Assembly: GCF_016595525.1 (NCBI RefSeq)
Contig: NZ_JAENII010000001.1
Span: 434,001-498,000 of the forward strand
Direction: 5' to 3'
DNA length: 64,000 bases
From: Haloferula rosea
Lineage (GTDB): Bacteria; Verrucomicrobiota; Verrucomicrobiia; Verrucomicrobiales; Akkermansiaceae
Position numbers and translations under genes: made by a program. The notes under the pieces are model-generated. The model saw only the letters and a list, made by a program, of their open reading frames with translations, did not search any database and was not told the origin of the DNA. Positions 1,545 to 14,483 of this stretch are shown one piece after another (positions within the stretch are counted from its first letter, which is position 1; the number at the start of each line of letters is the position of its first letter).

Positions 1545-1549
1545 GATTG

Positions 1550-3256
1550 ATGAAATTCAAATTCCATTTCCTTCTTCTGGCTGCCGGTAGCCTGGGTTTC
1601 AGCGGCTGTGACAAGCCGGCCGGGGCACCTGCCGAACCGGGTGCGGAAGCAAACGTAGTCCCGTCGGCCGATCAGGTCGATGGGGTGGAACCTGCCAAGG
1701 ATTCGGCCAAGAAGCCCAACATTCTCTTCCTGATTACCGACGACCAGTTCAAGCACCACATGAATTGGATGCCGGAAGGCAAACAGGACAACGGCAAGCC
1801 ACGCAACTTCACCCCCAATACCGATCGCCTTGCGGAGAGCGCGACGATCTTCGATCGGATGTACGTGACTTCGCCGGTGTGCACGCCCAGTCGGTTTGCC
1901 GCGCTGACCGGGATGTATCCAAGCCGATCGAAAGCGCAGAGTTTTCTCGACCGCCAGAAGGAACTGGGTGGTCAGGCTTCAGTGGAGTGGAACACCTTCA
2001 TCACGGAGGGCATGCCGACGCTGCCAAAGATGCTGCAGAAGGCGGGCTATCGGACGGGAATCGTCGGCAAGAACCACGTGGTGGAAGTCAAGGGCATGAA
2101 GAAGCCCGAGTGGCTGGCGAAGGCGGATGACCCCGAGATGCTGGCGATTCTGAAGGACAACTACGCGAAGCAGATGGAGGCCATCCATGAGGCGGGATTC
2201 GACTATGGTGCCTCGCTCTACTACGACAACCCCGACTTCATCGGGGTGAAGGCTCTCGCTTCGCACAACCTCGATTGGATTGCCAAGGGGGCGCTGGATT
2301 TCCTCGACGAAGAGGATGACCGGCCGTTTTTCCTCTACTGCGCGGTGACCATTCCCCATGGCCCTGGCGAGCCGGAGCGTTCTTACAAGGCGGATCCACG
2401 GATCACCGCCGTGGGCATGCTGAAGGAGCCTCTGGATGTATTGCCTGCGCGAGACACCCTCGAACCTCGACTGAAGGAGGCCGGTGTGCCGGCCAAGTGG
2501 GGCCGCCCGAACCTGTTGTGGCTCGACGACATGGTGGGCGCACTCGTGGACAAGCTGGAGGCATCGGGTGAGCTTGAGAATACGATCATCGTCTATTTCA
2601 ACGACCACGGCCAGCAGGCCAAGGGGACGATCTATGAAGGAGGGGTGCATTCCGAGGGCTTCATCCGCCGTGAGGGTGGTTTCCCGGTGGGGCCACGGAC
2701 TGATGCACTGGTCAGCAATCTGGATTTCGCACCGACCCTGGTGGAGCTTGCCGGAGCAAGCAGTGGGGAGGCGGACTTCGATGGAGCTTCCATCATGCCG
2801 GTGCTGAATGGAGAGAAGGAGCAGGTGCATGATGCGCTTTTCTTCGAACTGGGATTCGTGCGCGGGGTGATCCAGGGCGAGTGGAAGTACATCGCGCTCC
2901 GCTATCCCGAGCCGGTCGCGAACATGTCGGTGGAAAAACGTCAGCGCGTGCTGGATCGCTTCAACGAGAACCAGACGAGACGGGGGCGTCCGGTTTACAC
3001 GGAGGATCCGGCGGCTCCATTCTCCCACGTGCAGTCGATTCCCGGCGGTGGTGATGCGGAACACATGTCGATCGGCAAGTATCCGTCCTTCCACGACGCG
3101 GATCAGCTCTACCACCTCGCCTCCGACCCGACCGAGCAGAAGAACCTCGCCGCGGACCCGGCACATGCCGCGAAGCTGGCCGAGCTGCAACAGGTCCTGC
3201 GCGAGCATCTGGAAGGAATGCCCGGCACCTTCGGCGACCTGAAGCCAGCCAACTAG
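1550..3256 (+). CDS. S1 sulfatase, predicted lipoprotein
   Basis: Second type I sulfatase of the cluster, 569 aa from the ATG; a TTG codon just upstream is a less likely start. The N-terminus is a lipoprotein signal with a lipobox-like FSGC near residue 20, followed by a Pro/Ala/Glu-rich linker, so the enzyme is probably membrane-anchored. Catalytic features: PNILFLITDDQ, the formylglycine motif CTPSR with Cys111 followed by ALTG, and a late metal-site stretch YFNDHGQQAKG. It differs clearly from the upstream enzyme (different linker, spacing and C-terminal region), suggesting a different sulfate position or sugar. It sits 5 bp after the first sulfatase and 21 bp before the GH1 gene, consistent with one transcript degrading a sulfated glycan. 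Confidence 0.9.
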   Translation: MKFKFHFLLLAAGSLGFSGCDKPAGAPAEPGAEANVVPSADQVDGVEPAKDSAKKPNILFLITDDQFKHHMNWMPEGKQDNGKPRNFTPNTDRLAESATIFDRMYVTSPVCTPSRFAALTGMYPSRSKAQSFLDRQKELGGQASVEWNTFITEGMPTLPKMLQKAGYRTGIVGKNHVVEVKGMKKPEWLAKADDPEMLAILKDNYAKQMEAIHEAGFDYGASLYYDNPDFIGVKALASHNLDWIAKGALDFLDEEDDRPFFLYCAVTIPHGPGEPERSYKADPRITAVGMLKEPLDVLPARDTLEPRLKEAGVPAKWGRPNLLWLDDMVGALVDKLEASGELENTIIVYFNDHGQQAKGTIYEGGVHSEGFIRREGGFPVGPRTDALVSNLDFAPTLVELAGASSGEADFDGASIMPVLNGEKEQVHDALFFELGFVRGVIQGEWKYIALRYPEPVANMSVEKRQRVLDRFNENQTRRGRPVYTEDPAAPFSHVQSIPGGGDAEHMSIGKYPSFHDADQLYHLASDPTEQKNLAADPAHAAKLAELQQVLREHLEGMPGTFGDLKPAN

Positions 3257-3277
3257 AATCCGAGTCGAGATCGATTG

Positions 3278-4675
3278 ATGCAATTTCCCGAAAACTTCAC
3301 GTGGGGCACTGCGACCTCATCCTATCAGATCGAAGGCGGACACGACGAGGGGGGCAAGGGGCCGTCCATCTGGGATGCCTTCTGCGAGATTCCCGGCCGA
3401 ATTGCGGGCGGGGACGACGGCAAGGTGGCCTGTGACCACTTCCACAAATTCCGGGAAGATGTGGCCCTGATGGCTTCGCTGGGCTTGCGGGCCTATCGTT
3501 TCTCCATCTCATGGCCACGCATCCTTCCGACCGGCCGGCTTGATCGTGGTTCGATGAACGAGGAGGGCATCCGTTTCTATTCCAAACTGATCGATACCCT
3601 GCTGGAGCACGGTATCGAGCCGTGGGTGACGCTCTACCACTGGGACCTGCCACTGGCACTCCAGACCGAGCGCGATGGCTGGTTGAATCCGGAGATCGCC
3701 GATGATTTCGAAGCCTACGCCCGGATCTGTTTCGAGGCCTTCGGGGATCGGGTAAAACACTGGATCACGCTCAATGAGCCATGGGTCGTGGCCATTCTTG
3801 GCTATGGGCAAGGGGTGTTCGCCCCGGGGCGAACCTCCACCACCGAGCCCTACGTCGCGGCGCACCACCTGCTGCGCTCCCATGCCAAGGCGGTGCAGTG
3901 CTACAGGAACGAGTTTGCCCATCAAGGCGGGAAGATCGGGATCACGAACAACTGCGACTGGCGCGAGCCGCTCACCGACAAGCCCGAAGACAAGGACGCC
4001 GCGCAGCGTGCTTTGGAGTTCTATCTCGGGTGGTTTGCCGATCCGATCTTCCGCAGTGGAGACTATCCGGAGTCGATGCGTGAGCGGGTGGGAGACCGAC
4101 TTCCGAAGTTCACGGAGGAGGAAAGCAAGGCGCTTCTCGGGTCCTCCGACTTCTTCGGTCTGAATCACTACACGACGATGTTTGCTGCTGAGGCATCCTC
4201 GGATGGCAAGGAAGGAAGCGTCTACGGCAACGGTGGTATTTCCGAGGATCAGGACGTGGACCTGTCCGTGGATCCCGAGTGGCCGCTGACCGAGTTCAAG
4301 TGGGCGGTGGTGCCATGGGGCTGCCGCAAGCTTCTCGGATGGATCGCCGAGCGATACGGGGATCCCGCCATCTACATCACCGAGAACGGTTGTGCGATGG
4401 ATGATCAGGTGTCAGCCGACGGAAGCGTGGATGATCAGGACCGCCTCGAGTTCTATCGTGGCTATCTGGAGGCCTGCCACCAGGCGATCGGCGACGGTGT
4501 CCATCTGAAGGGTTATTTTGCGTGGTCGTTGATGGACAATTTCGAGTGGGCGTCGGGCTACCGGTTCCGCTTTGGTCTGGTCCACGTCGACCCGAAGAGC
4601 CTGAAGCGCACACCGAAGAAGTCGGCGCACTGGTACTCGAAGGTCGTGCGAACGAATGCTCTCGGAGACGAGTGA
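3278..4675 (+). CDS. GH1 beta-glucosidase / beta-glycosidase
   Basis: Family 1 glycoside hydrolase, retaining, 465 aa, the normal length for the family. The N-terminus FTWGTATSSYQIEGG is the classic GH1 opening. The acid/base glutamate lies in TLNEPW (Glu167) and the nucleophile in YITENG (Glu369). The aglycone-site region WSLMDNFEWASGYRFRFGL is present near the C-terminus. No signal peptide is visible, so it should act in the cytoplasm on imported beta-linked disaccharides or short oligosaccharides. The chosen ATG follows an in-frame TTG by one codon. Being last in the sulfatase run, it likely finishes degradation of desulfated oligosaccharides; glucoside, galactoside or fucoside preference cannot be decided from sequence. 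Confidence 0.95.
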   Translation: MQFPENFTWGTATSSYQIEGGHDEGGKGPSIWDAFCEIPGRIAGGDDGKVACDHFHKFREDVALMASLGLRAYRFSISWPRILPTGRLDRGSMNEEGIRFYSKLIDTLLEHGIEPWVTLYHWDLPLALQTERDGWLNPEIADDFEAYARICFEAFGDRVKHWITLNEPWVVAILGYGQGVFAPGRTSTTEPYVAAHHLLRSHAKAVQCYRNEFAHQGGKIGITNNCDWREPLTDKPEDKDAAQRALEFYLGWFADPIFRSGDYPESMRERVGDRLPKFTEEESKALLGSSDFFGLNHYTTMFAAEASSDGKEGSVYGNGGISEDQDVDLSVDPEWPLTEFKWAVVPWGCRKLLGWIAERYGDPAIYITENGCAMDDQVSADGSVDDQDRLEFYRGYLEACHQAIGDGVHLKGYFAWSLMDNFEWASGYRFRFGLVHVDPKSLKRTPKKSAHWYSKVVRTNALGDE

Positions 4676-4724: not shown

Positions 4725-5468
4725 TCAGCGACGACGGCGAAGCAGGAAGCCGGTGAGGCCAATCATCGAGAGGAGGGCCGTTGAAGGTTCGGGAACCACG
4801 TCGAGCGAGAAGCGTGCCCGGAAGTGGTTGACCTTGAAGCCGTCGTTGGTGTCGCCCGACACGTAACCCACTGTCATGGCATCGGAATTGGGGGCGAAGG
4901 TGAATTCGTCGGTGGTGACGTTGGTGGCAGCGCCACCCCCGAAGGCGAGGCTTGCCACGTCGTCAGGAGCCGTTCCGTCATTCGTAAACTGGGAAAAATC
5001 GATCTGGTTGAAGCCGATGAAGTCGATCACTCCTGTATCGCCGGGGGTTGCACCCGCCCCCAATGTGATGGACCCGCCGGTGTAAGTGAAAGTAAGGCTC
5101 TCGGACACGTCACTGATTCTCCCACCACCATTGCCATTCACACCGAGGTCGTTCGGGTCGTTGTTGATCGTTCCTCCGGTGGCGGACACGGTGAAGTTGA
5201 ATACCGCGGTGTCGTCATCCGCTCCATTCCCGTCCAGAGTCAGGCTGGTCAGCGTGATGGTCATGGTGCCGCTTGCCTGTCCGTCAAGCCCGGCGGGCGA
5301 TTGGGAATAAGCTGCGTTCACCATGCCATCGACATCACCGACGGCGATGGCTCCACCTGAAGGGTTGGGGGATTCATTCGGCCCGATCCGATCGATGTTG
5401 AAGGTCAGGGCACCATGCGCCACGGGCGAGGTGATGGAGGCGAGTAAGAGGAAGTGGGTTTTTCTCAT
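4725..5468 (-). CDS. PEP-CTERM sorting-domain protein
   Basis: Exported protein of 247 aa starting at MRKTHFLLLASITSPVAHGA, a standard signal peptide; the open frame continues 41 codons upstream but that part does not look coding. The body is acidic, rich in Gly, Asn and Thr and poor in Cys, consistent with a beta-rich surface protein. The C-terminus holds VVPEPSTALLSMIGLTGFLLRRRR: a PEP motif, a hydrophobic segment and an Arg cluster. This is the PEP-CTERM signal processed by exosortase in Gram-negative bacteria. No enzymatic motif is visible and its function is unknown. It sits alone on the minus strand, convergent with the GH1 gene. Confidence 0.85.
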   Translation of the reverse strand: MRKTHFLLLASITSPVAHGALTFNIDRIGPNESPNPSGGAIAVGDVDGMVNAAYSQSPAGLDGQASGTMTITLTSLTLDGNGADDDTAVFNFTVSATGGTINNDPNDLGVNGNGGGRISDVSESLTFTYTGGSITLGAGATPGDTGVIDFIGFNQIDFSQFTNDGTAPDDVASLAFGGGAATNVTTDEFTFAPNSDAMTVGYVSGDTNDGFKVNHFRARFSLDVVPEPSTALLSMIGLTGFLLRRRR

Positions 5469-5600
5469 CAGTGAAGCGAAGGGATGGTTGTTGAAGGGTA
5501 ACACTCCAATTGTTTCGGACAATTTCCCAGTGGGCTCGAATTCGACCAGAAAACCCTGCGGGTGCGCCCATTCGGTGGGTAGGCAGCGCATGCCAATCCG

Positions 5601-8600
5601 TCAGTCGGCGACTCGGACACGACCAAATCCGATGCCGCCATTCGGAAGGTCCACTTCCACCAGAGATCCGGCGGGGGCGGTGATGGGCACCTCGGGGATG
5701 CTCACCCAGTCATTGAGGTCGACGGAGCTCTGGACGAAGTAGAGCAGGCTTGTGGTATTGCGGACCGGGACGAAGCGGAGGGCTGGCCCGGTGCCAGAGT
5801 CCTGCACGGTGACGGGACTGCCATGGGCGCCGCTGGTGGGTGAGGTGCCGAGGGCGAATTCCAACAGGTTGACCATGCCGTCTCCGTCGGGGTCGTCTTC
5901 CGGCATGGTCTCGAGCACGCCGTTCCATGGCTGGCCGGTGGACCATTGCTCGTAGAGACTGACTTCGGCGGTGAGGCGGCGAAGTGTCACTCGATCGATG
6001 GACGCGGTGTCGCCTGCTCCCCATTTGGTGCTGGTTTGGTTGCCCTGGAAGCGCGTCAGGGCCAGTCCACCGGTGGCCGCGGTGTCGGCATCAAGTTCCG
6101 GTAGTGGGATGGGACTGCCCCCAGCGATGGTCAGGGTGCCGGACCACTTGCGGGTGTCGAGATCGAGGATGGCTCGGACCAGCAGGTCGCTGGCAGTAGT
6201 GACTGCGCCGCCACCTTGGTCGAAGTCATAGAGGCGTTCGTTGCTGCTGCCGATGCGGTTTTCCAGCACCAGCGTGCCTGCATTCTTCCTGAATCGGATA
6301 TTGCCGAAATCGTTGCCGCCTTCGTCGCGGAGCGAGAAACCGAAGGTGACCCCATTGGGCGACTGGGTGAAGTCGATGGAATCGACGGCGATTTCCCAGG
6401 CGAAACGGCCGGTGGTGAAGGGGGCGCCGGGGTAGTTGGTGGTCGTGCGGAAGTGATCGGTGGTGTCCTGTTGGAGGAGCAGGTTTCCCGCTCCGTCACA
6501 GGCGACCTTGTCCGAGGTGGTGCCTGTGAAACCGGTTCCGTTGGCACTGAGGCAGCTCTCAAGTTGGACTCCCGATGCGTCGTCGAAATCCCACTGCTCG
6601 ATCACTTCGTCGGCCGGAGGGACCGGCAGGGTGAAGGTCACGGTGGCGTTGGCAGTCTGAGCAGCGCCATCGATTGCGGTGTAGATCATGGTGACCCCAC
6701 CCGCAAAACTCTCCGGGGCACTGAAGGTGATGGATGAGCCGTCAGTCGTCGCGGATCCGGAAGCCGGCTGGGTGATGGCGGAGATACTCAGCGGGCCATC
6801 GCCGAAGTCGTTGAGCCGGGGATCAAAGGTGAGTGTTTCGCCCGGCAGGATGGTGATGGCGTCATCGACGAGGGTGAGAGCGGGGGAGACAGCTCCTGTG
6901 TTGAGTGTCAGGGTCACATTCCCGGTGTTGGTGGTGCCATTGATGTTGTTGCCGTCGGAGAACTGACCACCCGGGTCGATCGTGAAGCCGTTCCAGCCGC
7001 CGAGGTTCTCACTCTCCACGCGATACTTGTATTTCTCGCCGTCGCCAGAGGAGAAGTTGTCATCGACGTAGGTACCGATGTTTCCCAGGACGAAGCCAAT
7101 CTCGCGGTAGCTGTCGGTGCCGCCATTCAAGGCGCGTTCGTCGGGTCCGGAGCGATAGATGATCGAGCGGGTGGCGTTGGTGGCGTTGATCGTCCAATCG
7201 AGATGGATGGCGTGGTCGGAGAGTTGGGTCAGGACGAGTCCGCTCGGTGCGGCATCCGGAGGGGTGGGGAGTTGGTTGATCACCGCGTTGTCGATCAGCA
7301 CCCGTTGTTCGCTTTGCCACGAGTTGCTTCCCGGTTTCGGCATCTTCGTGCCTGCGGAGAGAACCTTCTGATAGAGAGCGTCAAGCATCTCGGCGGCGAG
7401 GTCGGGTCGGCTTGGAGCTAGGTCGTTTCTTTCGTAGGGGTCGGCCGCGAGGTTGTAGAGCTCGAGACGGCGCTGGACCATGAAGTAGAGCAGCTTGTAG
7501 TCGCCCTTGCGGTAGGCACCGAGAGCCGGATTGGCGGTGCCGACATTGGCATTGGTGAAGAAGTGATGAAGGTCCGGGCGGGCCGAACGGGTGGGCTGGC
7601 CCGCGCTCAGCATGAAGCTTTCCGAGTCACGTGCTTCTGCCGGTTGTTGGGCCGCTCCGGTGAGGTCGGCAAAGGTTGCCCAAAAGTCCGCACCGTGCAC
7701 GAAGGCCTTCGAGACACTGGCGCTGGTCAGGCCGGGCACATGAACGATCAGGGGGATCCTGAGGCCGCCCTCGTAGACCCAGGTCTTCCCCTGGCGGAGG
7801 GGGTAGTTTGAGGTCGGATAGGCGGAGTAGGCATTCGAGAAGTCGCCCGTGTTCACGGGGTCGGTGGCGTCGTCCTCCAGATCCTTCGAGGGGTCGACTC
7901 CGTCGCCGTAGGCAGAGGTCGATTTGCCGCCGTGGTCAGAGGAGACCACGAGCACTGTGGTTTCCGCCAGCGTCTTGCCCGGGTGGCGGGGATCCGAGGT
8001 GGCGGCGAGGTGGGCACGGAGGTCAGCGATGCTGTCGTCGTAGCTCTTCATCATCGCGGCATAGACCCGGTTGTCCTGTACGACCCGAGTCGCCGAGGAG
8101 TAGTCGCGGATGAGTCCGGTGCCCGCGGGGTGGTTGGCGAGCTCGTCGGCCATGGACGTCTTCCTCGCCGTGAAGTAATCGATGTCGCTTTGCTTTGCCT
8201 CGGCCGGGGTGTGGACGGCATAGTGGGCGAGCGTGAGGAAGAAGGGGGAGGTGCTGTGATTAGTGAGGCTGTCGTTGATGAAGTCGATGCCTTCATCGGT
8301 GAGACGGTCGGTGAGATACTCCTCGCCGTTCGCTGCCGGCACGGTCAGTCCGGTGCCCGGGCCCATGTTGTAGGCAGGGTCGGAAAGGTCTTCGTAGAGC
8401 AGGGTGTTCGGGTCAGGGAAGTAGGAGAGGCCGTTGGTTGGATTGGACGAGGGGGCTCCGGCATGTCCGGCGGCGATGCTGACGTCGAATCCCTGCTGAG
8501 CCGGACCACGAGGAATGGAGTCGTCGCTCTGACCGAGGTGATACTTGCCGATGTAGCAGGTGCGGTAGCCAGCGCCTTGGGCGGCCTCACCATAGGTCAC

Positions 8601-9215
8601 GGCATCGATAGGAACGCCGCCGCCGGTGGAATTGCCACCCGGGTCGAGGTAGTCGCTTCCTTTGCCCACCACTTCCGGGTTCCAGTCATAGGTGCCGGTG
8701 AGAAGAGAGCGGCGTGCCACCACACAACGGGGGCCCGAACAGTAGGCATTGTCGATCACCATGGACTGGCCAGCGAGGATGTCGAGGGCGGGTGTCTCGT
8801 GAATGGTCGGTCCGTCGATCGGGCGGTTGCGGAGGGCCACGATGTCCTTCACTCCCATGTCGTCGGCGAGGAAGAAGATGATGTTCATGCGGATCGTGGT
8901 CGCCGCGCTTCCCAGAACGAGGGGTGCGGACTCCGTGGCACCATGGAGAGAGCGAACCTCATACGAGTAGCTCGTCTCGGGGTTCAAACTACGGTCGTAG
9001 TAGTAGGTCGATCCAGCGGGCAGGTCGGCAACGGGGGATCCGTCCCGATAGATCCGGAATCCGGTTTCTCCATCGACGGAATCGGTCCATGCAAGGGCGA
9101 TGGTCGCGGGCCCACCGGGCGAAGCGGCTCCGTGGCTCGGTGGATCGATCGCAAACAGGCTTGAGCCGAAGAGAAGGCTGACGAACAGCTGGGTTTTGAA
9201 AATTCGGGTCGTCAT
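5601..9215 (-). CDS. Large multidomain secreted sulfatase with atypical Cys motif
   Basis: Secreted 1204-aa protein. Order of parts: signal peptide (1-22); fibronectin-III-like domain (~25-105); S1 sulfatase domain (~108-620, MNIIFFLADDMGVKD start, VVSSDHGG later); second FN3-like domain (~650-770); an Ig/cadherin-like beta domain (~785-865); a ~205-residue module starting EQWDFDD (~874-1080); an Asp-rich calcium-binding-like stretch DDPDGDGMVNLLEFALGTSP; and a C-terminal beta module ending RVRVAD. The sulfatase nucleophile position reads C-V-V-A-R-R-S-L-L-T-G from Cys164, so the usual Pro/Ala two residues after Cys is Val. It may be a divergent substrate of the formylglycine-generating enzyme or an inactive homologue. 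The central and C-terminal modules recur in the upstream gene at 9387-11006. Confidence 0.88.
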   Translation of the reverse strand: MTTRIFKTQLFVSLLFGSSLFAIDPPSHGAASPGGPATIALAWTDSVDGETGFRIYRDGSPVADLPAGSTYYYDRSLNPETSYSYEVRSLHGATESAPLVLGSAATTIRMNIIFFLADDMGVKDIVALRNRPIDGPTIHETPALDILAGQSMVIDNAYCSGPRCVVARRSLLTGTYDWNPEVVGKGSDYLDPGGNSTGGGVPIDAVTYGEAAQGAGYRTCYIGKYHLGQSDDSIPRGPAQQGFDVSIAAGHAGAPSSNPTNGLSYFPDPNTLLYEDLSDPAYNMGPGTGLTVPAANGEEYLTDRLTDEGIDFINDSLTNHSTSPFFLTLAHYAVHTPAEAKQSDIDYFTARKTSMADELANHPAGTGLIRDYSSATRVVQDNRVYAAMMKSYDDSIADLRAHLAATSDPRHPGKTLAETTVLVVSSDHGGKSTSAYGDGVDPSKDLEDDATDPVNTGDFSNAYSAYPTSNYPLRQGKTWVYEGGLRIPLIVHVPGLTSASVSKAFVHGADFWATFADLTGAAQQPAEARDSESFMLSAGQPTRSARPDLHHFFTNANVGTANPALGAYRKGDYKLLYFMVQRRLELYNLAADPYERNDLAPSRPDLAAEMLDALYQKVLSAGTKMPKPGSNSWQSEQRVLIDNAVINQLPTPPDAAPSGLVLTQLSDHAIHLDWTINATNATRSIIYRSGPDERALNGGTDSYREIGFVLGNIGTYVDDNFSSGDGEKYKYRVESENLGGWNGFTIDPGGQFSDGNNINGTTNTGNVTLTLNTGAVSPALTLVDDAITILPGETLTFDPRLNDFGDGPLSISAITQPASGSATTDGSSITFSAPESFAGGVTMIYTAIDGAAQTANATVTFTLPVPPADEVIEQWDFDDASGVQLESCLSANGTGFTGTTSDKVACDGAGNLLLQQDTTDHFRTTTNYPGAPFTTGRFAWEIAVDSIDFTQSPNGVTFGFSLRDEGGNDFGNIRFRKNAGTLVLENRIGSSNERLYDFDQGGGAVTTASDLLVRAILDLDTRKWSGTLTIAGGSPIPLPELDADTAATGGLALTRFQGNQTSTKWGAGDTASIDRVTLRRLTAEVSLYEQWSTGQPWNGVLETMPEDDPDGDGMVNLLEFALGTSPTSGAHGSPVTVQDSGTGPALRFVPVRNTTSLLYFVQSSVDLNDWVSIPEVPITAPAGSLVEVDLPNGGIGFGRVRVAD

Positions 9216-9270
9216 GGGTTGGAAAAAGGAAGCATGGGAGTGCGGGTTCTCAAAGGCGCGTCAGCGTTCT

Positions 9271-9317
9271 TTTTCGGCCCACGATGGCCGAGAAAACGCC
9301 CTTCTTCGGGGAAGGGC
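9271..9317. other. Two adjacent intergenic hairpins
   Basis: Two inverted repeats stand side by side in the gap between two minus-strand genes. The first is centred on CGGCC/GGCCG, extended by T/A pairs (9271-9295). The second is GCCCTTC/GAAGGGC around a TTCGGG loop (9298-9317). A third, stronger hairpin follows at 9336-9359. They may be RNA-stability or termination elements; no gene lies here. Confidence 0.4.
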
Positions 9318-9330
9318 TTCCCAAGGAATG

Positions 9331-9359
9331 CAAAAGGCCGGCATCGTGAGATGCCGGCC
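9331..9359 (-). terminator. Rho-independent terminator for the 9387-11006 gene
   Basis: A perfect 10-bp inverted repeat (GGCCGGCATC/GATGCCGGCC) with a 4-nt loop lies 27 bp past the stop of the minus-strand gene. On the minus strand the hairpin is followed directly by TTTTG. Strong stem plus short U-run is a standard intrinsic terminator, and it would separate this gene from the large sulfatase gene downstream. Confidence 0.75.
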
Positions 9360-9386
9360 AGTTTGAATGGTTGAAGCTTCTCCGGC

Positions 9387-11006
9387 TCAGGGGGTATTGA
9401 GACGGTAGAAGTTGGCCGGAGTGCCTGGGGTGGAAATCGTCAACTCGAAGTTGTCACCATTCTCGACCGGCACGCCGACGACTTGTTCCCACGCGTCCGA
9501 AGCACCCAGGTCCGTGGATTCCTCAAGCACGGCATTGGCGGGGGTGGCGATCGGCCAAACGAGAGTGATCTCTCCTGCGCCCGGGCCTTGGACGATGGAC
9601 AGGCTCAGGTCGGTCGGAGCGTTGAGATCACGGATGACCAGATAGTCGACGAGCACTTCGTCAGCAGCACCCCAGTCCAAGGTGTTGGTGTTGGCTGTCG
9701 TCCGGACCTGATCGAACTCGAGGCCTGTGGCTGCCATGGCGATACCCGACACGCAGTTTCCGATGCCGTCACCGAGTTGCCAGTGGACGTCGAAGGTGTC
9801 GGTGTCCAAGTCGGCGACCACCGAAACGTTCAGGTCGGTGATGGTGGTGACTCCGAAGTCGACTAGGGTTGTGTTGGTGTTTCCGACACGGGTTTGCAGG
9901 AGGAGGCTGCTGTTCTGCCGATGGAGACGGACGATGAAGAGGTCGGTGCCGGCGCCTTTGTCGCGCATCCCGAAGCCCACATTCGCGCCGGTCACATCAC
10001 CACCGGAAAGAGTGGCCGAAGGGACGAACCATTCCATGCCGAAGCGCCCGGTCGTCTGGTCCGGTGTGGTGATGTCACCGTTGCGGAAGATGCTGTCGGT
10101 ATCGCTCGTGCCTTGGGTGAAGACCATGTTTCCGCCCGAAGTCACGGCATTGTCGGCGTTTCCACCCAGCGTGCCGGTGCCCGCGTCGTTCTGGGCGTTG
10201 CCGAGGCTTTCGCCGTCGATATTGAATTGCCAGTCCTCGATGGCCGGTGCGACCGGAGGGTCGGTGTAGGTCGAGAGTGTCAGGAAATCGACCGCCACTT
10301 CGTCCGTGGCGCCCCAGTCGGTCGCATTCGTGCTGGCGTAGAGGCGGAGGCGGTCGAGCGTTGATCCGGTGATATCCATCGGGATGTTCGTCTGGCATCG
10401 TTGAGGCTGGCCGTCCGGAGTCCAGTAGACATCGTAGGTGTCGCTATCCATGTCGAAGATCACGCGGACTTCGAGTGGGCCGGTGAGACTGGTTTGCGCG
10501 AAGTCCTCCAGATCGGTGTTGAGGCCGGTGGAGCTGTTGCGTCGCTGGAGGCGGAGGTCGCCATTTTGCTTCTGGAGGCGGACATTCAGCAGGTCGACGT
10601 TGCTCGAGTTTCGAACTGTGAATCCGACATTGGCACCAGTAGCATCCCCGCCTGCCAAAGTCGCGGACTGGTAGGTGAAGGCGAGTTCGAACTTGCCGGT
10701 GGTGGCACCTGGTGTGGTGACGTCGGTCGTGCGGAACAAATTGTCGGTGGATTCATCGACTTCGGTGGTCTCCGGGTCGTCGACGCTGACGGAAAACACC
10801 AGGTGGCCTGAGCCGTCGGTGGCGACGTTTGCGACGTTACCGGCCCACGCGGCGGTGCCTGCTGAGTTGACGAGGCCAGTGAAGGGAGTGTCGGCGGCTT
10901 CATTGAACTGCCAGTCCTCGAGCGTGCTGGCCGAAGCGGGTGACGAGCCGACTCCTACGACAGCCATGAGGCTGAGGAGAGTGGTCAGTGAATTGGATGG
11001 TTTCAT
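9387..11006 (-). CDS. Secreted protein with tandem EDWQF beta modules
   Basis: Exported 539-aa protein of unknown function. The start chosen is MKPSNSLTTLLSLMAVVGVG, giving a signal peptide cleaved near ASAS; the frame is open further upstream but without coding character. Two tandem ~215-residue modules follow, opening LEDWQF (residue ~29) and IEDWQF (~257). Each then has an F-R-x-x-D-(I/V)-T-T-P motif, a TTG(K/R)F strand, GANVGF, an xLRLQ/SLLLQ strand, a D-x-D-(S/T)-D-T-(Y/F)-D-V stretch and a closing DWGA.DEV. The same module occurs once in the neighbouring 1204-aa sulfatase. The last ~70 residues form a C-terminal beta module ending FYRLNTP, also shared with that sulfatase. The fold resembles concanavalin/LamG-like beta sandwiches, so glycan binding is possible, but this is inference. 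Confidence 0.8.
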   Translation of the reverse strand: MKPSNSLTTLLSLMAVVGVGSSPASASTLEDWQFNEAADTPFTGLVNSAGTAAWAGNVANVATDGSGHLVFSVSVDDPETTEVDESTDNLFRTTDVTTPGATTGKFELAFTYQSATLAGGDATGANVGFTVRNSSNVDLLNVRLQKQNGDLRLQRRNSSTGLNTDLEDFAQTSLTGPLEVRVIFDMDSDTYDVYWTPDGQPQRCQTNIPMDITGSTLDRLRLYASTNATDWGATDEVAVDFLTLSTYTDPPVAPAIEDWQFNIDGESLGNAQNDAGTGTLGGNADNAVTSGGNMVFTQGTSDTDSIFRNGDITTPDQTTGRFGMEWFVPSATLSGGDVTGANVGFGMRDKGAGTDLFIVRLHRQNSSLLLQTRVGNTNTTLVDFGVTTITDLNVSVVADLDTDTFDVHWQLGDGIGNCVSGIAMAATGLEFDQVRTTANTNTLDWGAADEVLVDYLVIRDLNAPTDLSLSIVQGPGAGEITLVWPIATPANAVLEESTDLGASDAWEQVVGVPVENGDNFELTISTPGTPANFYRLNTP

Positions 11007-11284
11007 GGGTTTCGAGTAAGATTCGTGGTTTGAATGATCGGAACCATAGTGAGTGCCATTGGATGAAATCAACAAGGCGCTATTGTGGTGAAGAACGGTG
11101 GGTTTAAGTTGATAAAACGCACTTTGCGTCCGTTTCTTGCAATTCCTGATGGTGCTGATTGATCGGTTTCTGGATGCGATAGTGCGTTCCTGCATGGTTT
11201 CGAGGACGAAAATGGCTGCGGGGTTCCCTTGAGCAAGGCGCAGGGATCGGGGAAGGTTCGGAAACTCAAATCCGAATCCTCTTC
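11007..11284. other. Divergent intergenic region
   Basis: This 278-bp gap separates the minus-strand beta-module gene from the plus-strand pseudopilin gene and must hold promoters for both. It is visibly more AT-rich than the flanking genes. No RNA gene, clear operator repeat or convincing promoter pair could be singled out by eye. Confidence 0.5.
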
Positions 11285-11983
11285 ATGAAAACCCATTTCT
11301 TCAAACCAACCCGCGCCGCAGGTTTCACCCTGGTCGAACTTCTTGTGAGTATCGTCATCGTGGCGGTGCTTGCTTCGGTGGTCTTCGCCGTTTCGATCCG
11401 CGTGAAGTCGAAAGCGAATGCTGCCGGTTGTGTATCGAACCTCCGTCAGGTCGGCAGCATGATGAATGCAGCGGCTGTGGAAAACAGCGGCATGTATCCT
11501 CATGGCGGGCCACCCAAGGGGTGGATTCGTCGTCTGGTGTCCGAGGTTGATACCAGTTATCCGGATACCGGTGGTCCGGCGGATGGTCCCTTCTTCAAGG
11601 ATGGAGCCGGGAACATCTTCAATTGTCCTGCCGACAAGGATGGGTGCCGCGAACTTCATAAGAGCTACCTTGGCAATCCATGGGTGCTCGGGATGAAGGA
11701 CGGGGAGGGTGAGTGGCTCGGAAATGGTGCCTTTTCCCCGCGGCGTGTGCAGTCGATTCGCCAACCGGCCCGCACCTTCCTCATCGTCGAGGACTGGACC
11801 CGCGATGCGCCGCTGTGGCGTGGCAACGGCCTCCGTTACCGGGGTGATCTCAACAAGGATGCTGAGAACCCTGCCCACGGAGAGGGGCGGCACTTCCTCT
11901 ATGTGGATGGGCATGTCGAGTATCTCGCCAAGGACCCGGGCATGACCGACGAAGGTTATGCGGTGCACTACCAGGGCCGATAA
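11285..11983 (+). CDS. Type II secretion-type pseudopilin, H-X9-DG family
   Basis: Protein of 232 aa with a type IV pilin-like leader: a short basic stretch, then AAGFTLVELLVSIVIVAVLASVVFAV, with the Gly-Phe cleavage site and the conserved Glu five residues after it. Prepilin peptidase would cut and methylate it. The hydrophobic N-terminal helix continues into SIRVKSKANAAGCVSNLRQVG, typical of DUF1559/GspG-like proteins that are very numerous in Planctomycetes and Verrucomicrobia. Near the C-terminus, GRHFLYVDGHVEYL fits the H-X9-DG style signature of this family. The true role (pseudopilus, secretion or substrate display) is unknown. It lies 37 bp upstream of the GH94 phosphorylase and may share its transcript. 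Confidence 0.87.
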   Translation: MKTHFFKPTRAAGFTLVELLVSIVIVAVLASVVFAVSIRVKSKANAAGCVSNLRQVGSMMNAAAVENSGMYPHGGPPKGWIRRLVSEVDTSYPDTGGPADGPFFKDGAGNIFNCPADKDGCRELHKSYLGNPWVLGMKDGEGEWLGNGAFSPRRVQSIRQPARTFLIVEDWTRDAPLWRGNGLRYRGDLNKDAENPAHGEGRHFLYVDGHVEYLAKDPGMTDEGYAVHYQGR

Positions 11984-12020
11984 GCGTGTTCGATTCACTT
12001 TCTTTCCTTCTGACTCAGTC

Positions 12021-14483
12021 ATGAAATACGGTTACTTTGACAACGATCGGCGCGAGTACGTGATCACCGATCCCAGGACCCCGGTCAAGTGGGTCAACTA
12101 CATCGGCTCGCTGGCCTTCGGCGGTATCGTCGACCAGACCGGTGGTTCTCTGCTGTGTGCCGGTGATCCGGGGTTGAACCGGATTACCAAGTACATCCCG
12201 CAGCTCCCGGCATCGGACTTCAAGGGCACCACGCTCTATCTGAGGGTGCGGGGGAAGGACGGGGTTGAGTTGATCAGCCCCTTCTTCACTCCCCGCCTGG
12301 ACGCATTTGATCTCTATGAATGCCGGGTCGGGTTGTCCTATCAGACGATCGTCAGTGAGATCCGCGGAATCCGCACCGAGGTGACCATCTTCGTGCCGAC
12401 CGGCGAGTCCGTCGAGTTGCGTGATATCCGGGTGACCAACCTCCGCGACGATGAAGTGGATGTGGAAGTGGTGCCGGTCGTGGAGTACAGCCACTTCGAC
12501 GCGCTCAAGCAGTTTGCCAACGCCGACTGGGTGCCGCAGACGATGATGAGCGAGGCACTGCCAATCGATGCCGATCATCTCGCCCTCCTCCAGTATCCCT
12601 TCCTGAGGAAGGACGGCGCGGTGAACTATCTGTCCGCCAGCGGGGCGGTGTCGTCCTTCGAGAGCGACCGGAAGATCTTTCTTGGTGGAAACGAATATGG
12701 CACCTGGCGTGAACCGCTGGCCCTGGCATCCGGGCACCCGCTATCCTGCTACGAGGCCCGTCGTGGGGACAACATCGGTGCACTGGTGCTGCCGCTCGGA
12801 ACGCTCCAGTCGGGAGCAGAGGAGCGGGTGGTTGCCATGCTCGGGCAGGCCGAGCGCGACGAGATCCGCACCACCGTGACGAAGTACTGCAACCATCATG
12901 AAGTGGATGCCGCGTTCGAGAGGTTGGCGGATTTCTGGAGCGCGAACCTTTCCGTGTTCGAGTGCCGCACGCCGGACCCTGACTTTGATGCCATGGTCAA
13001 CGTGCACAATCCGCGGCAGTGCTACATGACGATGAACTGGTCGCGCTACCTTTCGCTCTATCAACTCGGCATCGGAACCCGGGGACTTGGTTTCCGTGAC
13101 AGCTCGCAGGATGTCATGGGCGGACTGTCGGGTGCGCCGGGCGAAGCGAAGGAGTTGTTGCGCAAGCTGCTGAGTATCCAGAAGCCCGATGGATCCGCGA
13201 TGCACCAGTTCTATCCGGCGACGATGGAGGCCGACTGCGGGGATGCCGAGGAGGAGAAGGATAATGGCAAGCTGGTCTATGGCGATGACCACCTGTGGAT
13301 CGTGTCCGCGGTGTGCGCCTACCTGAAGGAGACCGGTGACCGTGATTTCCTCGATGAGAAGATCACCTACTACGATGCTAGTCTTTCCATTGACGGACGA
13401 CCTGATGGAACGGTGATGGAGCACCTCTGCAAGGCGCTTGCCTGGACGAAGGAGAATGTCGGTGACCATGGCATCCCCTTGCTCGGGTTCGCGGACTGGA
13501 ACGATTGCGTCAATCTTCCCGGCAAGGCGGAGAGCATGTTCAATGCCTGTCTCTACGGGCTGGGCCTGCGTGAGATGATCGAGCTCTGCGAGCACCTGGG
13601 GCATGATGACCTGGCGGAACGCTATCGGGGTGATCACGCCGACATGCGGCAACAGGTCAACGAGGTTGCCTGGGACGGGGATTGGTACGTGCGCTACTTC
13701 ACCGAGCAAGGTGAGGCGCTCGGCTCGAGGAACAATGCCCATGGAGCGATCTACACCAACGCCCAGTCGTGGGCGGTGATGGCAGGGTTTGCACCGGAAG
13801 AACGGGCAAGTCGTGCCTTGGATTCAGTGCGCGAGAAACTCAACACGCCCTTCGGGATCAAGCTGAGTGGTCCGGGATACAACCAGTATGACCCGGAAAT
13901 CGGTGGAGTGACGACCTATCCGCCCGGTGCCAAGGAGAACGGCGGCATCTTCCTGCATTCCAACCCCTGGGTGATGATCGCCGAGACGATGCTTGGACGT
14001 GGCGACCGTGCCTTCGAATACTACTCACAGATCAACCCGGCGAAACGCAATGACGACATCGATCTGTTCGAGGTGGAACCCTATTGCTATCCGCAGAACA
14101 TCCTCGGGGACGAGCATCCCCAGTTTGGCCTCGGCCGGAACAGCTGGTTGTCGGGCACGGCATCGTGGACCTATCAGGCGGCGACAAAGTTCATCCTCGG
14201 CATCCGACCCGGGCATGACGGGTTGGTGGTGGATCCCTGCGTGCCGAGTTCCTGGGACCGCTTCGAAGTCACCCGTCGGATCCGTGGCGCGAGCTACAGG
14301 ATCGTGGTGGAGAATCCGCAGGGAGTGTCGCGGGGGGTGGCTTCCATCACCGTCGACGGCAAGGCCTTGGACGGCGGAGTGATTCCTTACTGCGACGGCG
14401 GCGAACATCTCGTCGAGATCACGATGGGTGAGGAGTCTCACGGCGTGGTCGAGGATGTCACGGAATTGGCGGCTGCCGGGTGA
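12021..14483 (+). CDS. GH94 disaccharide phosphorylase (cellobiose/chitobiose phosphorylase family)
   Basis: Inverting phosphorylase of family GH94, 820 aa from ATG; the frame is open 21 codons upstream but that part overlaps the pseudopilin stop. The start MKYGYFDNDRREYVITDP is the family hallmark. The catalytic Asp lies in GFADWNDCVNLPG (residues ~491-503). The C-terminal half carries the (alpha/alpha)6 barrel features, such as NAHGAIYTNAQSWAVMAG and SWLSGTASWTYQA. It would split a beta-linked disaccharide with phosphate to yield a sugar 1-phosphate plus a free sugar. No signal peptide, so cytoplasmic. The N-terminal region (TGGSLLCAGDPGLNRITKY) differs from textbook cellobiose and chitobiose phosphorylases as I recall them, so substrate is left open. 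Confidence 0.9.
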   Translation: MKYGYFDNDRREYVITDPRTPVKWVNYIGSLAFGGIVDQTGGSLLCAGDPGLNRITKYIPQLPASDFKGTTLYLRVRGKDGVELISPFFTPRLDAFDLYECRVGLSYQTIVSEIRGIRTEVTIFVPTGESVELRDIRVTNLRDDEVDVEVVPVVEYSHFDALKQFANADWVPQTMMSEALPIDADHLALLQYPFLRKDGAVNYLSASGAVSSFESDRKIFLGGNEYGTWREPLALASGHPLSCYEARRGDNIGALVLPLGTLQSGAEERVVAMLGQAERDEIRTTVTKYCNHHEVDAAFERLADFWSANLSVFECRTPDPDFDAMVNVHNPRQCYMTMNWSRYLSLYQLGIGTRGLGFRDSSQDVMGGLSGAPGEAKELLRKLLSIQKPDGSAMHQFYPATMEADCGDAEEEKDNGKLVYGDDHLWIVSAVCAYLKETGDRDFLDEKITYYDASLSIDGRPDGTVMEHLCKALAWTKENVGDHGIPLLGFADWNDCVNLPGKAESMFNACLYGLGLREMIELCEHLGHDDLAERYRGDHADMRQQVNEVAWDGDWYVRYFTEQGEALGSRNNAHGAIYTNAQSWAVMAGFAPEERASRALDSVREKLNTPFGIKLSGPGYNQYDPEIGGVTTYPPGAKENGGIFLHSNPWVMIAETMLGRGDRAFEYYSQINPAKRNDDIDLFEVEPYCYPQNILGDEHPQFGLGRNSWLSGTASWTYQAATKFILGIRPGHDGLVVDPCVPSSWDRFEVTRRIRGASYRIVVENPQGVSRGVASITVDGKALDGGVIPYCDGGEHLVEITMGEESHGVVEDVTELAAAG

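Follow-up and report, generated by a model that had tools for sequence, protein, structure and literature searches.

Module copies in two adjacent genes

The 64,000-nucleotide stretch of the Haloferula rosea genome analysed here (the window) contains two adjacent genes on the reverse strand that encode three copies of an unnamed protein module. Copies 1 (10263-10922) and 2 (9621-10241) belong to a twin-module protein, of which copy 1 is the N-terminal module. Copy 3 (5970-6602) is located in the C-terminal part of a 1204-residue sulfatase protein (5601-9215). Pfam and NCBIfam models together with the module profile divide the sulfatase protein into an fn3 domain, matched weakly and below the cut-off, the sulfatase domain PF00884, SGSH_C, Big_9, module copy 3, and a C-terminal region. 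The open reading frame (ORF) of the twin-module protein is 602 residues long from its first possible start (9387-11195). The gene most likely starts at 11006, where an internal ATG, corresponding to residue 64, opens an apparent signal peptide, as judged by eye. The resulting protein (9387-11006) has 539 residues, the length given in the original prediction, which was made from the nucleotide sequence. The last 78 residues of the twin-module protein were considered as a shared sorting domain and rejected, as among 740 ORFs they matched the orthologue from the same genus only.

The module had been described as opening with the motif E[DQ]W[QD]F and closing near WGAxD, and both motifs were located in all three copies. 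The 602-residue ORF has the opening motif at residues 93 and 320 and the closing motif at residues 294 and 508, and the sulfatase protein has them at residues 873 and 1065, respectively. The three segments, each 204-223 amino acids long, can be aligned end to end by blastp. Copies 1 and 2 share 44% sequence identity (E 5e-51), copies 2 and 3 share 31% (E 2e-18), and copies 1 and 3 share 28% (E 3e-16), which bears out the claim that two adjacent genes hold three copies of one module. As a control, the residues of copies 1 and 2 were shuffled to give 2000 versions, which were scored against copy 3. The shuffled versions reached at most 29.6 bits, compared with 78.2 and 69.3 bits for the two real copies.

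The module was compared with the Pfam, NCBIfam, and PHROGs libraries. None of the three libraries matched it consistently, and no Pfam or NCBIfam model covers any of the copies in the window. Iterated profile searches of 17 stretches, which contain the 740 ORFs, gathered 42 copies of the module in 29 ORFs. Taken together, these copies matched 21 Pfam families at E ≤5, and no Pfam model matches more than two of them. Isolated matches were obtained to GbpA_2 and GEVED, on a single copy each (E 0.00097 for GbpA_2, with a whole-protein score of 18.9 bits and a cut-off of 26.6; E 0.0063 for GEVED), and to DUF7256, on ORF L038 6466 (E 0.0005, 20.3 bits against a cut-off of 27). Searches of Protein Data Bank (PDB) sequences with module profiles gave nothing below E 0.4. 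The module is a real domain family that is unnamed in the libraries scanned, and the earlier statement that it matches no named family holds in these profile scans, from which no well-described family emerged. The sequence family could become an entry of its own in Pfam.

With a profile built from the three copies, five copies were detected in the H. rosea genome at E 0.01, and with a 42-row profile there were six. These six are located on contig C11, from 424.5 to 444.9 kb, and therefore within about 20 kb. Half of them fall outside the window, just upstream of it (C11:424484-425137, 425339-426028, and 428663-429304). Across 387 sampled genomes of the phylum, nine were matched by the three-copy profile and sixteen by the 42-row profile, both at E 1e-4. 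At most seven or eight candidates per genome were scored in these sweeps, so the numbers of copies are minimum values and the lack of a match in a genome does not prove absence. The distribution of the module looks patchy, because only two of the six sampled genomes of the genus, H. rosea included, were matched among the candidates scored. Beyond the phylum, the search extended to plasmids, to phages, and, in a single pattern scan, to genome contigs. Copy 2 had no match at E 0.01 among the plasmid and phage records. In the pattern scan, 92 stretches fit the pattern and one relative was confirmed, in a metagenome-assembled genome of Opitutales (L033).

Predicted fold and conserved residues

The structures of copies 2 and 3 were predicted using AlphaFold2, with an input alignment of five sequences in each case. 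Both models are confident and nearly all-beta sandwiches, with a predicted local distance difference test score of 84 and a predicted template-modelling score of 0.85 for copy 2 (m71c782bf5ca3), and 83 and 0.84 for copy 3 (m08da0a990a9e). The models were compared with known structures using Foldseek (copy 2) and VIA-align (copies 2 and 3). At Z ≥8, 903 of 1000 chains aligned with copy 2 and 578 of 1000 with copy 3, and the alignments span the whole domain. Legume and ERGIC-53 lectins are among the matches listed at Z 13-17, as are the C-terminal sandwich domains of enzymes from glycoside hydrolase family 43 (GH43). A sialic-acid-binding domain of a sialidase is among the listed matches of copy 3. 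Copies 2 and 3 are thus predicted to share a concanavalin A-like lectin/glucanase fold, one of those that the original prediction had proposed for comparison, and copy 1 is linked to them by its identity to copy 2.

The top match for both models is the sandwich domain of BT_1020 (PDB 5mqr, residues 415-614), with Z of 17.3 for copy 2 and 16.4 for copy 3. In both alignments 173 residues were superimposed, with root-mean-square deviations of 2.7 and 3.0, respectively. Similar to the module, the BT_1020 domain is a sandwich located internally in a multidomain protein that degrades glycans. However, the two share only 11-12% sequence identity, and searches of the PDB with sequence profiles did not detect the BT_1020 domain. 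Legume and ERGIC-53 lectin domains share the fold of copy 2 at Z 14.5-15.8 and about 10% identity.

Membership of the module in two other families was not supported. Laminin_G_3 (PF13385) belongs to the concanavalin-like superfamily according to its Pfam description and occurs in three module-bearing proteins, but in segments apart from the module. None of the 42 copies matches it at E ≤5, and comparison by hhalign gave a probability of 0.1 with a three-row alignment. The 3keto-disac_hyd family (PF06439), presumably the same as DUF1080, is similar to the module in length and has 21 matches in the H. rosea genome. It is absent from the Pfam matches of the 42 copies, and its hhalign probability was 0.2 with an eight-row alignment.

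Conserved positions of the module, in copy 2 numbering, are W4, F6, G65, R93, R105, D144, D146, R180, W190, D194, and D199. The D-x-D stretch listed among the landmarks of the module in the original prediction corresponds to D144 and D146 and is positioned at a predicted beta-hairpin turn. Column 140 is an arginine in most copies and a serine in copy 2. Arginine or lysine is kept at columns 93, 105, 140, and 180 in 26-32 of the 42 copies, and column 190 is aromatic in 36. The conserved arginines should point outward, because they alternate with hydrophobic positions in the strand pattern.

Enzyme partners and genomic neighbourhood

The Pfam matches of the 29 copy-bearing ORFs show which domains accompany the module. 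In 13 of them the module is joined to a sulfatase, GH10, GH18, or GDSL-esterase domain, and it is thus a discrete domain attached to carbohydrate-active enzymes, as in the class of carbohydrate-binding modules (CBMs). Sulfatase domains are present in seven ORFs and GH10 domains in five, with both in one, so that eleven ORFs carry either or both. GH18 and GDSL-esterase domains occur in one ORF each, and one further ORF has a beta-helix. The count of sulfatases includes ORF L035 16720, which is cut by the end of its stretch and in which PF00884 is below and SGSH_C above the cut-off. In the 1825-residue ORF L043 7854-13331 (reverse strand), GH10, module, and sulfatase follow each other in a single chain. 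The 1328-residue ORF L038 6466-10452 (reverse strand) has a GH18 domain flanked by two modules on either side.

Near the module genes, the forward strand of the window has two sulfatase genes (3-1544 and 1547-3256) and a GH1 gene (3275-4675). They are followed on the reverse strand by the gene for a PEP-CTERM protein (4725-5591), which adjoins the sulfatase-module gene and was not picked up with the module profile. An ORF of similar appearance is found at the same place in a genome of the same genus (L035 15869-16603). Beyond the twin-module gene, a forward-strand gene with a prokaryotic N-terminal methylation motif (11285-11983) precedes a GH94 gene (11958-14483, forward strand), and a same-genus genome has an ORF with a similar sequence between its twin-module and GH94 genes (L036 3327-4028). 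Upstream of the window are genes for an MFS_2 transporter, a regulator of the Peripla_BP_3/AraC type, a sulfatase, and a protein that weakly matches GH39 and GH79, as well as for GH10 and sulfatase proteins that carry the module. The GH10 protein bears only a distant resemblance to xylanases.

The pairing of the module with a sulfatase had been taken as a hint of carbohydrate binding or adhesion. The hint holds in that carbohydrate-active partners recur. The partners are a wider group than sulfatases, extending to GH10, GH18, GDSL-esterase, and beta-helix domains, and the 4.68 Mb genome of H. rosea has 117 sulfatase family matches, in dense runs on contig C11, so that a neighbouring sulfatase by itself says little about specificity. 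The GH94 neighbour says more, because it is the only GH94 match in the genome and is located 2 kb from the nearest module copy. Among solved structures, its closest relatives are cellobiose phosphorylases.

A GH94 gene is positioned within 10 kb of a module copy in six of the 16 copy-bearing genomes (G000, which is H. rosea, G316, G001, G172, G081, and G227), and the same six are among the nine genomes matched by the stricter three-copy profile. A rough estimate of the probability of finding this by chance is 1.3e-6 for five of eight genomes, with the same-genus genome G316 excluded, and 6.5e-7 with earlier GH94 counts; both estimates use rounded locus counts and genome sizes and were computed after GH94 had been noticed. 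GH94 is encoded in 13 of the 16 copy-bearing genomes and 139 of the 371 others (Fisher p 9e-4, uncorrected for genome size and relatedness).

Function of the module

The copies are homologous, their fold is predicted, they are fused to enzymes, and in H. rosea they are clustered in the genome. The most economical reading is that the module is an unnamed CBM-like accessory domain with a concanavalin A-like fold that tethers secreted enzymes to a glycan, to which we assign a probability of about 0.65. We infer secretion, glycan binding, and the location of a binding site. In sulfatases, GH10 proteins, the GH18 protein, and the esterase, the module would hold the secreted enzyme on its glycan. 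The twin-module protein, in which no enzyme is recognised, or a single module with a PEP-CTERM tail, would bind glycan for the same degradation locus, either in secreted form or at the cell surface. Oligosaccharides of the target glycan would end at the GH94 and GH1 enzymes. The presence of GH94, GH1, and GH10 suggests that the glycan is probably beta-linked. It is possibly sulfated, the one indication being the partner sulfatases. Loci of sulfatase-rich bacteria often have unknown substrates, and the ligand of the module would point to the substrate of its locus. If binding is shown, the family would also merit a CBM entry in CAZy. A more specific version, in which the module represents a new CBM family for a sulfated beta-glycan that is cut by GH10 enzymes and sulfatases and finished intracellularly by a GH94 phosphorylase, is tentative, with the odds against it. 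No such GH10/sulfatase/GH94 route is described in the titles and opening parts of abstracts returned by a literature search, and the module is not mentioned in the available parts of PMC8857213 and PMC10880615.

Several observations weigh against a glycan-tethering role. A shared fold is no proof of function, as the concanavalin-like fold also hosts enzymes and structural domains. The link to GH94 was singled out post hoc, and co-occurrence of the two may reflect larger genomes having both. Ten of the 16 copy-bearing genomes lack a GH94 gene within 10 kb of the listed copies: in seven the gene is farther away (G018, G158, G333, G003, G029, G035, and G174), and in G108, G204, and G300 it is absent altogether. 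All 42 copies have a net negative charge, with a median of -14, which disfavours simple electrostatic binding of a sulfated glycan. Fourteen of the 29 ORFs have no catalytic or beta-helix Pfam partner and are twin-module proteins, similar to that in the window, or single modules. Among these 14, PEP-CTERM is matched above the cut-off in L040 and L033 3828 and below it in L034 11246. ORF L046 has immunoglobulin-like and NPCBM-associated matches only. The uniformly acidic copies and the 14 ORFs without a recognised enzyme also fit a spacer, or a domain that binds proteins or the cell surface, joining enzymes or anchoring them on the cell without a glycan ligand, and concanavalin-like domains can indeed be structural. 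Nevertheless, such a role is unlikely, as the fusion partners are chiefly carbohydrate-active enzymes and the copies in H. rosea are located among GH94, GH1, GH10, and sulfatase genes.

The module could instead belong to a named family from which it has strongly diverged, the best candidate being the GH43 C-terminal domain GH43_C2 (PF17851), which we take to be CBM91. GH43_C2 is an accessory sandwich on polysaccharide-degrading enzymes, and its structures 5z5d and 5joz are good fold matches (Z 14.3-15.4 over both models). In a single hhalign comparison with a nine-row alignment, the two families matched over 75 columns (module positions 88-166) at E 0.0096, and the module profile weakly matches the GH43_C2 locus L090 (E 0.04, profile positions 88-169), where the match falls within that domain and keeps the same register. 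Judged by sequence, a deep relation between the two is possible. Membership in GH43_C2 is less likely than a spacer role. The hhalign probability was 4.3, whereas two subsets of the module (10 and 16 copies, in larger alignments) match each other at 99.9. Furthermore, PF17851 is not among the Pfam matches of any of the 42 copies, and the Pfam tables of the 29 ORFs contain no GH43 model. We consider it least probable of all that the module is itself an enzyme, a lyase or endo-glucanase of the concanavalin fold. Alginate lyases and beta-glucanases are among its fold matches, and arginine, aspartate, and tryptophan positions are conserved. However, of the two families checked, a GH16 signature is present in one of the 42 copies and polysaccharide lyase family 7 signatures in none, and a tandem arrangement next to complete catalytic domains is characteristic of binding modules.

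The sulfatases fused to the module differ in their signature motif. Sulfatases normally have C-x-[PA]-x-R, and four of the fused sulfatases contain CGPSR or CNASR (L034 8417, L035 3521, L043 7854, and L048). In contrast, the sulfatase in the window (5601-9215, at residues ~164-175), L036 1-1514 (reverse strand), and L041 7292-11020 (reverse strand), which come from genomes of the same genus and same class, have the motif CVVAR. The cysteine is retained, and the CVVAR variant may reflect a different maturation of the enzymes or a loss of activity.

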